Assembly (NCBI RefSeq): GCF_001941625.1
Contig: NZ_CP016076.1
Location: forward strand, 1,550,001-1,614,000
Source: Actinoalloteichus fjordicus
GTDB taxonomy: Bacteria; Actinomycetota; Actinomycetes; Mycobacteriales; Pseudonocardiaceae
Direction of reading: 5' to 3'
DNA: 64,000 nt
Made by a program: the position numbers and the translations under genes. Of this stretch, positions 3,058 through 5,562 are shown one piece after another. Positions within the stretch are counted from its first letter, which is position 1, and every line of letters starts with the position of its first letter. The notes beneath the pieces were generated by a model. The model was given only the letters and a program-made list of their open reading frames with translations, searched no databases and was not told where the DNA came from.

Positions 3058-3930
3058 GTGAGCAGACAGCCGTTGCGGATGGCGTTGATGGAGGCCGAGC
3101 GGATTCTCCGAGCGGCGGGGGTGGGCAGCCCGCGAACCGACGCGGAACTGTTGGCCTCGGAGGTGCTGGGCGTGTCGCGAGGCAGGCTGGCGTTGGTGAC
3201 CCTGGTCGACGAGGACGTGATCGAGAACCTGCACGAACTCGTCCGCAGGCGGGCGGAGCGCATCCCGCTCCAGCATCTCCTCGGCTGGGCCCCGGCGGGC
3301 GCGATCACCGTGAGTGTCGGGCCGGGCGTCTTCATTCCCCGCCCGGAGACGGAGCTGCTGCTCGAATGGGGGCTCGCCGCGCTGGCCGGGGTCAGCAGGC
3401 CGGTCGTGGTCGATCTGTGCACCGGTTCCGGCGTACTGGCGCTCGGCGTGGCGAACGCCCGGCCCGATGCGATCGTGCACGCGGTGGAGCGGGAGCCGCG
3501 CGCGTTGGCCTGGGTGCGCAAGAACGCCGATGCGCGGGCCGCCGAGGGGGACACCCCGATCCGGCTCCACGCGGGCGACGTGACCGACCGCGCGACGCTG
3601 GCCGATCTGGACGGAACGGTCGACCTGGTGTTGTGCAACCCGCCGTACGTGCCGCTGGCGGCCCAGGTCGAGCCGGAGGTCTCCGAGCACGATCCCTTCG
3701 AGGCGGTGTTCGGCGGCCCGGACGGGCTGGACGTGATCCGGCCGGTCGTGAGTACGGCCGCGCGGCTGCTGCGGCCGGGCGGGGGAGTGGCGATCGAGCA
3801 CGACGACACCCATGGCGAGTCCGTTCCCGCGCTGCTCGCGGCGCGCAAGGTGCTCACCGACGTCGCCGCCCACTCGGATCTCGCCGGGCGACCGCGCTTC
3901 GCCACGGCCCGCCGCACCGGCACGCGGTGA
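3058..3930 (+). CDS. prmC: Release factor glutamine N5-methyltransferase PrmC
   Basis: 290 residues. It methylates the Gln of the GGQ motif in RF1/RF2 using S-adenosylmethionine. An N-terminal helical domain (about 1-90) is followed by a Rossmann-type methyltransferase domain with VVDLCTGSGVLAL as the SAM-binding loop and the catalytic N194-P-P-Y197. The start is the GTG at 3058; an ATG seven codons in (3079) is possible. The gene following prfA is the usual partnership. Confidence 0.95.
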   Translation: MSRQPLRMALMEAERILRAAGVGSPRTDAELLASEVLGVSRGRLALVTLVDEDVIENLHELVRRRAERIPLQHLLGWAPAGAITVSVGPGVFIPRPETELLLEWGLAALAGVSRPVVVDLCTGSGVLALGVANARPDAIVHAVEREPRALAWVRKNADARAAEGDTPIRLHAGDVTDRATLADLDGTVDLVLCNPPYVPLAAQVEPEVSEHDPFEAVFGGPDGLDVIRPVVSTAARLLRPGGGVAIEHDDTHGESVPALLAARKVLTDVAAHSDLAGRPRFATARRTGTR

Positions 3931-4167
3931 TCGATCTCGACGGTTCTTCGCGCCTCGATCTTGCCCTGGTCCGCCCGTCTTCGATACCCTGACCGGCTCT
4001 GCGCAGTCGGGGCCGGGCCCGAGGAGACGGCTCTGGCGGGTGGGTCGGGCGGTGGTGCCGCTCGATCGGACATCGAACGCGACGTCCGATCGTGGCGGAG
4101 CCGACGGATGCGCAGCAGGCGATGACTCAGTAGAAGACCGCACGACAGCCGAAAGGAGCGTGACGCC

Positions 4168-4227
4168 GTGCGATGCCATACCTGGCCGCCCGCCTGGAGA
4201 CTCCGGGAGCACGGGCGGCGGGTCTGA
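4168..4227 (+). CDS. Candidate 19-codon upstream open reading frame
   Basis: GTG at 4168 lies 9 bases after a GAAAGGAG site (4151-4158), a better ribosome binding site than that of the next gene. It encodes MRCHTWPPAWRLREHGRRV and stops at 4227, 11 bases before the ATG of the Cys-rich gene at 4239. It has the layout of a leader peptide or translational-coupling frame. There is no independent evidence of translation. Confidence 0.3.
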   Translation: MRCHTWPPAWRLREHGRRV

Positions 4228-4238
4228 GAAAGAACGAG

Positions 4239-4544
4239 ATGTCCCGTTCGGACAGGACGAAACCGATGTGGGTGCGCTGCATCGAGCACGCCGCCCCTCC
4301 GATTCATGATCACCGCTTCGGCACCTGTGACCTCCCGCCACGTCCGACGCGGGAGGAGACCGACACCCGTTGCCGATGGGAGACCGACAGCTTCTCGCCG
4401 TTCGGCCGCACGTGTTGTTCCGGTTGTCCGCATCGCTTCTGCCGCAATGAGCGACAGCGGATGAACAAGACCGCCAACCGCGATGAACGCCGAGCAGGCA
4501 GGCGTGCGGCACGCCGCTTCCTCCGGGGCGGGGACGACGACTGA
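4239..4544 (+). CDS. Small Cys-rich basic protein, conserved hypothetical
   Basis: 101 residues beginning MSRSDRTKPMWV, an N-terminus I associate with a small uncharacterised actinobacterial protein family. Visible features are an HDHRFGTCDLP segment, a CRWE segment, a CCSGCPHRFC cluster that could bind a metal, and a highly basic tail (ERRAGRRAARRFLR) ending in acidic GGDDD. The ATG at 4239 is chosen because the family-like sequence starts there; it follows an AGAACGAG stretch. It is preceded by a tiny frame with a good ribosome binding site and followed by a 16-bp inverted repeat. Function unknown; nucleic-acid binding is only a guess from the charge. Confidence 0.6.
   Translation: MSRSDRTKPMWVRCIEHAAPPIHDHRFGTCDLPPRPTREETDTRCRWETDSFSPFGRTCCSGCPHRFCRNERQRMNKTANRDERRAGRRAARRFLRGGDDD
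4331..4356 (+). repeat. 8-bp perfect hairpin inside the Cys-rich gene
   Basis: CCTCCCGC (4331-4338) pairs with GCGGGAGG (4349-4356) around a 10-base loop. It lies in coding sequence, so it may simply be a product of base composition. Confidence 0.4.
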
Positions 4545-4561
4545 GTCTTACCCGCATCGCA

Positions 4562-4630
4562 GACGTCCGAGACCGAGACGGACCCGCCGCCCCCGGGCAG
4601 CGTGTTCGGCCCGCCTCGGTCTCGGACGTC
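4562..4630. terminator. 16-bp perfect inverted repeat with long loop, likely terminator
   Basis: GACGTCCGAGACCGAG (4562-4577) is the exact reverse complement of 4615-4630, separated by 37 GC-rich bases. It begins 17 bases after the stop of the Cys-rich gene. A terminator is the simplest reading; the long spacer would also fit a protein-binding or recombination site. Confidence 0.55.
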
Positions 4631-4914
4631 ACCTCGTCCGCACCCGTCGGCTGCCGCTCTCCGGTGAGCCCGTGCGGCGGGCCGCAGGCGAGTCGGTTCA
4701 CCGCGGCCGACCCCGGCGATCGCGGGATTCACGAACCGGCGACCCGCACCTGACTCCGGCCTCCGCGGACACGCGCTGCGCACCGTCGACGCCCGACTCG
4801 CCGCGCTGCCGGACCCGTTCCCCACACCGGACTCACGCCGGCCCCGCGCCGCGCCGAACCCCTTCGCTCCGGCCCCCTGACCGCGCCCGGACCGGTGAGT
4901 GCCAGGATCGTCCG

Positions 4915-5562
4915 GTGAGCATCAGCTACGACTGCAACAGCTCGGACACCCGGCAGGCAGGGCTGGCCGCCGCCGCCGACGCGGTGCGCGCCGGTCAACT
5001 GGTGGTGCTGCCCACCGACACGCTCTACGGCATCGGCTGCGACGCCTTCGACGCGGACGCCGTGCGCTCCCTGCTCAGTACGAAGGGCCGGGGCCCGGAC
5101 ATGCCCGTCCCGGTGCTGGTCGGCTCCTGGTCGACCATCGACGGCCTCGTGCTGACCGTTCCGCGCTCGGCCCGCACCCTGATCGAGGCCTTCTGGCCCG
5201 GCGGGTTGTCGCTGGTGTTGCCGCACGCGCCGTCACTGGCCTGGGACCTGGGCCGGACTCGCGGCACGGTGATGCTGCGGATGCCGCTGCACCCGGTCGC
5301 GCTCGAACTGCTTCGCGACGTCGGCCCGATGGCCGTCTCCAGCGCGAACCGCTCGGGTCGCCCGCCCGCGACGACGGCGGAGGCCGCCCGCGATCAGCTC
5401 GGCGACGACGTCCGGGTCTATCTCGACGGCGGAGCGGCCGAGCACGCGGTCGCCTCCACGATCGTCGATCTCACCGGCGGATCGCCGAGGGTGCTGCGGG
5501 AGGGCGCCGTCTCGACGGCGGAGATCTCCGAGGCACTCGGCGTCGACATCGCGGTCGAATGA
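4915..5562 (+). CDS. tsaC: Threonylcarbamoyl-AMP synthase (Sua5/YwlC/TsaC)
   Basis: 215 residues. It makes threonylcarbamoyl-AMP from threonine, bicarbonate and ATP for t6A37 modification of ANN-decoding tRNAs. It shows the YrdC-domain signatures VVLPTDTLYGIGCDA, KGRGPDMPVPVLV, FWPGGLSLVL and VSSANRSGRPPATTAEA. The GTG at 4915 is preferred: the protein then starts at the family position and a CAGGAT hexamer (4903-4908) lies 6 bases upstream, suggesting a leaderless transcript. Upstream in-frame sequence is Arg/Pro-rich and not credible. It is the short form without the C-terminal Sua5 domain. Confidence 0.93.
   Translation: MSISYDCNSSDTRQAGLAAAADAVRAGQLVVLPTDTLYGIGCDAFDADAVRSLLSTKGRGPDMPVPVLVGSWSTIDGLVLTVPRSARTLIEAFWPGGLSLVLPHAPSLAWDLGRTRGTVMLRMPLHPVALELLRDVGPMAVSSANRSGRPPATTAEAARDQLGDDVRVYLDGGAAEHAVASTIVDLTGGSPRVLREGAVSTAEISEALGVDIAVE

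Follow-up and report, generated by a model that had tools for sequence, protein, structure and literature searches.

A short leader reading frame and a hairpin precede a small, sporadically distributed gene of actinobacteria and some of their phages

Introduction

A small gene of Actinoalloteichus fjordicus, which encodes a 101-residue protein of an unnamed Cys/His/Arg-rich family, is preceded by a leader open reading frame (ORF) whose start and frame are conserved, and by a nested hairpin in which base-pairs covary among relatives. The preferred reading, with a probability of roughly 40%, is that of a single-gene unit in which translation would be gated by the leader mini-ORF; it draws on sequences and fold models. 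Known regulatory upstream ORFs (uORFs) of bacteria were mostly discovered individually. Here what appears to be one device, an ORF of four or five codons with a hairpin, recurs over many actinobacterial genera and in some phages. Since the device recurs while its peptide changes, translation itself rather than the peptide is indicated as the signal. The protein family, kept by some phages among tRNA and ribosome-rescue genes, also offers a testable path to function. The features are collected in Table 1, with positions counted in the window, the whole stretch of 64,000 nucleotides that was analysed (NZ_CP016076.1, 1,550,001 to 1,614,000).

Table 1. Features of the gene and its leader in the window
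Feature	Position	Strand	Details	Basis
RBS of the leader ORF	4153-4158	+	AAGGAG	sequence
Leader ORF	4168-4227	+	19 codons in the window; conserved part is the start and the codons to the usual place of the stop	sequence comparison
Nested hairpin	4185-4219	+	P1, 4185-4192 with 4212-4219; P2, 4193-4198 with 4202-4207	covariation
RBS of the main gene	4228-4232	+	GAAAG; inside hairpin P3 in most group A relatives, P3 broken in the window	sequence, alignment
Main gene	4239-4544	+	unnamed Cys/His/Arg-rich protein family	ORF, homologue searches, alignment, dN/dS
Inverted repeat	4562-4630	+	16-bp perfect arms, 4562-4577 and 4615-4630; 37-base loop; terminator-like	genome search for the arms, fold against shuffles, comparison with G002

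The gene and its protein family

The gene occupies part of an interval of some 1 kb that separates an upstream ORF ending at 3930, read from its translation as prmC, from a gene that starts near 4915. As read from the translations, the local order is rpmE, prfA, prmC, the 101-codon gene, a tsaC/sua5-like gene and glyA. Just 5′ of the small ORF read as rpmE (1340-1552), Rfam has a match to RF03158, the L31-Actinobacteria leader (1255-1320, + strand). Besides a CRWE segment and a basic tail, the encoded protein has Cys at positions 14, 30, 45, 59, 60, 63 and 68; the initial annotation had called attention to a gene with clustered Cys and these two features in what would look like an empty gap, and the ORF and its translation bear out each of these points. 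The homology search that it proposed finds relatives at 129 loci in one scan of named genome contigs. The 80 that were kept are all actinobacterial, with many from Streptomyces and Nocardiopsis, others from Streptosporangiales, relatives of Actinoplanes and Pseudonocardiales, and one each from Mycobacterium and Rhodococcus. A set of 112 loci gave 101 distinct proteins, and 71 sequences entered alignment A2; L085, whose start is missing, was left out, and L131 has no determinable orientation. In the 71-row alignment the invariant positions include D5, P9, H23, D24, H25, G28, C30, L32, C45 and W47, so that both His and Cys are invariant in the family, and an Arg near the C-terminal end is conserved.

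The distribution of the gene is sporadic across actinobacteria and some of their phages. Matches are found in 15 of 390 Pseudonocardiaceae genomes and in 16 of 394 genomes of a class sample, while a phage-weighted profile matches 13 of 298 genomes at the level of the order and 2 of 296 at that of the phylum (the source genome being counted each time). The nearest relative, G002, has a protein 95% identical to that of the window, and the two frames differ by a dN of 0.029 and a dS of 0.113, values which indicate purifying selection on the protein frame. Since the gene is conserved and under such selection, and its leader is conserved too, it is more than a chance ORF. Conserved operon partners were sought and rejected: apart from the family itself, no neighbour cluster is present at more than 7 of 81 loci in a comparison of ORFs of at least 90 codons with high GC3. 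One genome of the same genus carries the gene and its leader twice, side by side (L023, G001:C1:2251738-2252618), and the copy at L034 (G003) has an early end of its reading frame and is probably decayed.

No family in Pfam, NCBIfam or PADLOC fits the 71 members scanned in each, the weak matches involving one or two members with a best E of 0.027. In PHROGs the best E is 0.0074, with two members matching an unnamed PHROG, and a sequence search of the PDB gives a single match with an E of 6.1. The predicted fold (mean pLDDT 77.8, pTM 0.41) has no match among PDB structures; matches in BFVD have E values from 0.02 to 9, and two of them are the proteins of Asapag and Cane17. Literature searches of a partial collection found no paper on the protein family or its leader.

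The leader ORF

Upstream of the ATG at 4239, conserved DNA occurs in two main forms, group A, with 57 leaders including that of the window (58 with the phage contig L115), and group B, with 36 leaders. In group A a start codon is followed by four variable codons, a codon at a conserved place, helices P1 and P2, and then the main RBS in the small hairpin P3. An ATG or GTG stands exactly five codons before the conserved codon in 52 of the 58 leaders, window and L115 included, and in the remaining six the start and its ribosome site lie further upstream, still in frame. The start letters swap between A and G (24 ATG, 28 GTG) while the inner codons vary, and the length changes among these leaders keep the frame in every case (6/6). 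An RBS precedes the in-frame start in 51 of 54 anchorable leaders, as counted by eye with a loose list of sites; L098 and L127 are unanchored in this count, though included among the 58. In the window this site, AAGGAG, is indeed better than that of the gene, GAAAG, as had been noticed at the outset. The comparison establishes a putative leader ORF with a kept start and frame 5′ of the gene.

At the conserved place 27 of the 58 leaders have TAG, 12 have CAG, 9 TGG, 7 CGG and 3 another codon, so that 31 leaders, that of the window included, have no stop at the hairpin. The window has TGG at 4183-4185 where G002 has TAG, and because UGG stands where the stop is expected, the leader ORF extends to 19 codons in the window. 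The 19-codon peptide was rejected as a conserved unit, since the leader of G002, with its 95% identical protein, stops after five codons; judged from the aligned leaders, this length is peculiar to the genome of the window. The initial annotation's upstream frame is thus conserved in its start and frame in group A and in its stop in group B, but not in its length.

In group B, an extended RBS, GGAGGTGATC, found in 24 of the 36 leaders when counted by eye, is followed by a frame of four or five codons. Of the 34 leaders that could be parsed, 22 encode MHPV with or without one further residue, and 33 have their stop at codon 5 or 6; the parsing pattern missed L095 and L106, both of which by eye stop at the hairpin. 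Leaders without a stop at codon 5 have a T as the following base, giving TGA, in 20 of 21 cases, against 3 of 13 otherwise (Fisher p 2e-5, uncorrected for relatedness). The exception in group B is L113, whose leader frame continues to a TGA, read by eye, that overlaps the main start as ATGA. L066 keeps the gene and the last part of the leader (P3), and by eye unrelated DNA replaces its mini-ORF and P1/P2.

The first codons of the gene are fixed at the DNA level as well. In group A, Arg3 is encoded by CGT in 44 of 57 genes, compared with 105 of 931 Arg codons further along the same genes. Codon 3 is thus mostly CGT, although CGC prevails later. The first codons (4239-4256 in the window) could also form a small hairpin, UGUCC-CGUAC-GGACA, seen by eye in group A relatives.

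The nested hairpin and the inverted repeat

The nested hairpin, which is absent from the initial annotation, lies between the leader start and the main gene. On alignment A4, changes on both sides occur in 4 of the 8 pairs of P1, in 1 of the 6 pairs of P2 and in none of P3. Altogether, two-sided changes are seen in 5 of 19 pairs, with 97.2% of the cells pairing, and 0 of 500 shuffles reach either value; for further pair types, 43 of 500 shuffles attain the observed number. This covariation is support and not proof, since related sequences can beat shuffles without any structure. RNAalifold, unaided, yields P1 and P2 and not P3. A covariance model of group A, run on 246 genomes of the class and 12 chosen ones, reaches 64 bits or more only at the main gene, everything else falling below 31 bits; these lower matches are taken as chance, and the one inspected, L153, lacks the leader anatomy. 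Rfam 15 has no gathering-score match at the place of the gene and leader in the window, and at loose thresholds all matches in L053, L103 and the window (4000-4900) are far under the gathering scores. The P1 sequence differs among group A, group B and phages, and the core protein motif is constant.

The 16-bp perfect inverted repeat with its 37-base loop exists as first described; its place, however, is 3′ of the gene's stop, not between the small frame and the gene. Its arms have no further exact copies in the genome and are identical in G002, where the loop differs, and none of 200 shuffles folds as well as this stretch (z −5.5). The repeat was rejected as a regulator, since it sits 3′ of the gene and by eye is not seen after 15 other copies. 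No T run follows 4630, as it would in an intrinsic terminator, despite the strong stem. Actinobacterial terminators often have no T run, and the repeat is most likely a terminator; the terminator scan covers loops of 3-8 bases, a range that the 37-base loop exceeds. The proposal of a unit regulated through its leader is supported in part, by the kept frame and stop, whereas the repeat that it named is most likely a terminator, distinct from the conserved hairpin.

Phage and plasmid copies

Of the 13 copies examined in phages or viral contigs, seven are inside tRNA arrays, those of Cane17, Tonenili, prophi86-1, Rhodococcus phage Dorin and contigs L190, L193 and L195, a count that stands without a background rate for phage genes and that is not of fully independent copies, as Cane17 and Tonenili belong to the same genus and the three contigs are relatives. 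The L194 copy is about 3 kb after a tRNA array, and those of Asapag, L188, L189, L192 (with one doubtful tRNA call) and L115 are outside arrays. The copies of Cane17 and Tonenili adjoin a peptidyl-tRNA hydrolase gene, and genes for an RF-1-like protein, RtcB and peptidyl-tRNA hydrolase lie no more than about 4 kb from that of prophi86-1. Since phage copies sit among genes of this kind and in tRNA arrays, their neighbourhoods hint at a tRNA or ribosome role for the protein. Among 91 scanned chromosomal loci, a few of them overlapping, none is in a tRNA array and five have a single tRNA call. Four plasmid records, three from Rhodococcus, match a phage-type query, and two other queries have no plasmid match.

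The stand-alone phage leaders L115, L188, L189 and L192 repeat the leader plan with other sequences. The mini-ORF of L193 forms the end of the upstream gene, in the same frame, those of L194 and L195 overlap the upstream gene, and the leader peptide of L190 is the same as that of L193. The frames ATGACATGA of Cane17 and ATGACATAA of Tonenili, which have a weak site and lie inside another possible frame, were rejected as leader evidence; both are nonetheless among the 10 phage leaders in the accessibility and pairing models.

Models of unlocking

A detector of a short ORF with a hairpin finds 31 of 36 group B leaders and 8 of 13 phage leaders, against 54 of 640 other ORFs and 198 of 2260 shuffles. 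It finds 36 of 57 in group A, where at least 10 of the matches must be other short frames since only 26 have TAG, and 1 of 7 other leaders, through a dubious match. When a ribosome is placed on the leader ORF in group B, the modelled accessibility of the main site rises from 0.37 to 0.52, with 23 of 34 leaders up and none down (33 of 120 up in a matched control). In group A it stays unchanged (0.468 to 0.491), with 10 of 57 up against 31 of 120 in the control, and fold modelling gives no support for unlocking in this group, that of the window. Among the phages, 5 of 10 leaders open (control 33/120); of these only L188 stands clear of the upstream gene, and two are the doubtful Cane17 and Tonenili frames, so that the models support unlocking in phage leaders weakly.

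Pairing of the leader start with the main start in the 10 phage leaders has a value of −15.7 kcal/mol, against −9.8 for shuffled sequences and −9.9 for swapped partners. In group B it is −15.8 against −15.3 kcal/mol for swapped partners, which are themselves conserved, and in group A it is no better than shuffled. A hairpin joining the uORF and the main RBS is accordingly modelled for group B and some phage leaders and not for group A, the window included.

Proposed mechanism and alternatives

In the proposed mechanism, a ribosome would load at the strong site of the leader ORF, typically of four or five codons, and would end at, or pass, the foot of the hairpin. While it is parked there, the leader would be unable to base-pair with the RBS of the main gene, which would then be open to a new ribosome or to reinitiation. 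Given how freely the group A peptide varies, what the device senses is probably not one amino acid but how ribosomes initiate or terminate, for instance whether they stall or drop off. We infer that the leader ORF is translated, and likewise the direction of regulation, the signal sensed and the protein's target, tRNA or the ribosome. Unlocking in phages comes mostly from doubtful leaders or leaders that overlap an upstream gene, which somewhat lowers the probability of this reading. By eye no T-run terminator is seen between the leader and the gene, and for this reason coupling or unlocking fits the leader better than transcription attenuation.

The absence of such a terminator, along with the lack of a clear common pattern in group A peptides, makes attenuation by a sequence-specific leader peptide, responding to an amino acid or an antibiotic, very unlikely, even though the MHPV peptides of group B speak for it. 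About as improbable is the suggestion that leader conservation reflects recent horizontal spread only, with a functionless ORF and hairpin: the distribution is sporadic and neighbours are not shared, as such spread would have it, but the two-sided changes in the hairpin, the frame-keeping length changes and the compensating change of the stop in group B argue against it.

Two other explanations are unlikely to a lesser degree. The protein, Cys/His-rich and Arg-tailed, might bind P1/P2 of its own mRNA and block translation, the leader ORF being secondary. The restriction of the group A leader to this gene in the genomes searched, the position of the best covariation in P1 and the invariant His and Cys and conserved Arg of the protein are consistent with such autoregulation, but the core protein motif is constant even though P1 has a different sequence in group A, in group B and in the phages, and autoregulation does not explain why the leader ORF keeps its frame and stop. 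With a similarly low chance, the leader ORF might be a mere site of ribosome loading or reinitiation for steady expression, with nothing sensed; the variable group A peptide, the frequent loss of its stop and the ATGA overlap in L113 agree with this, whereas a hairpin right after the stop and the modelled masking in group B exceed what loading needs. Gating by the mini-ORF is preferred to all of these. A wider reading, unlikely as a whole, is that of an exchangeable actinobacterial and phage gene whose small zinc-binding product would act on tRNA or ribosomes, and which would be switched on by a peptide-independent mini-ORF that senses stalling or peptidyl-tRNA drop-off; phages would use the gene in tRNA arrays to counter tRNA-depleting defences of the host, and chromosomes would have adopted it as a translation-stress response.

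Comparison with known systems

Some tRNA array units of mycobacteriophages and mycobacteria contain genes for RF-1, Pth and tmRNA (PMC5966550). Similarly, some phage copies of the present gene sit in arrays that include a peptidyl-tRNA hydrolase gene and, in one case, an RF-1-like gene; the scanned chromosomal copies, in contrast, are outside arrays, and the protein family is not named in the passages of that paper concerned. The mg2 minigene of axe-txe, with two codons, acts in cis to raise expression of the next gene, perhaps through mRNA stability, and both its frame and its distance matter (PMC8708949). It shares with the present leader a very short ORF before a gene, and the frame is kept here as well, but the abstract of that paper does not mention a hairpin at the stop.

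A close parallel is toiL, the uORF of E. coli topAI-yjhQ, a short ORF within a hairpin that holds the RBS of the main gene; ribosomes stalled on toiL open this RBS, and several classes of translation inhibitor trigger the response (PMC12121999). In contrast to toiL, the present ORF typically has four or five codons, the group A peptide is variable, the hosts are actinobacteria and phages, and the group A fold model is without masking. Both leaders combine a short upstream ORF with a hairpin, and by analogy the logic of the present leader would be close to that of toiL.
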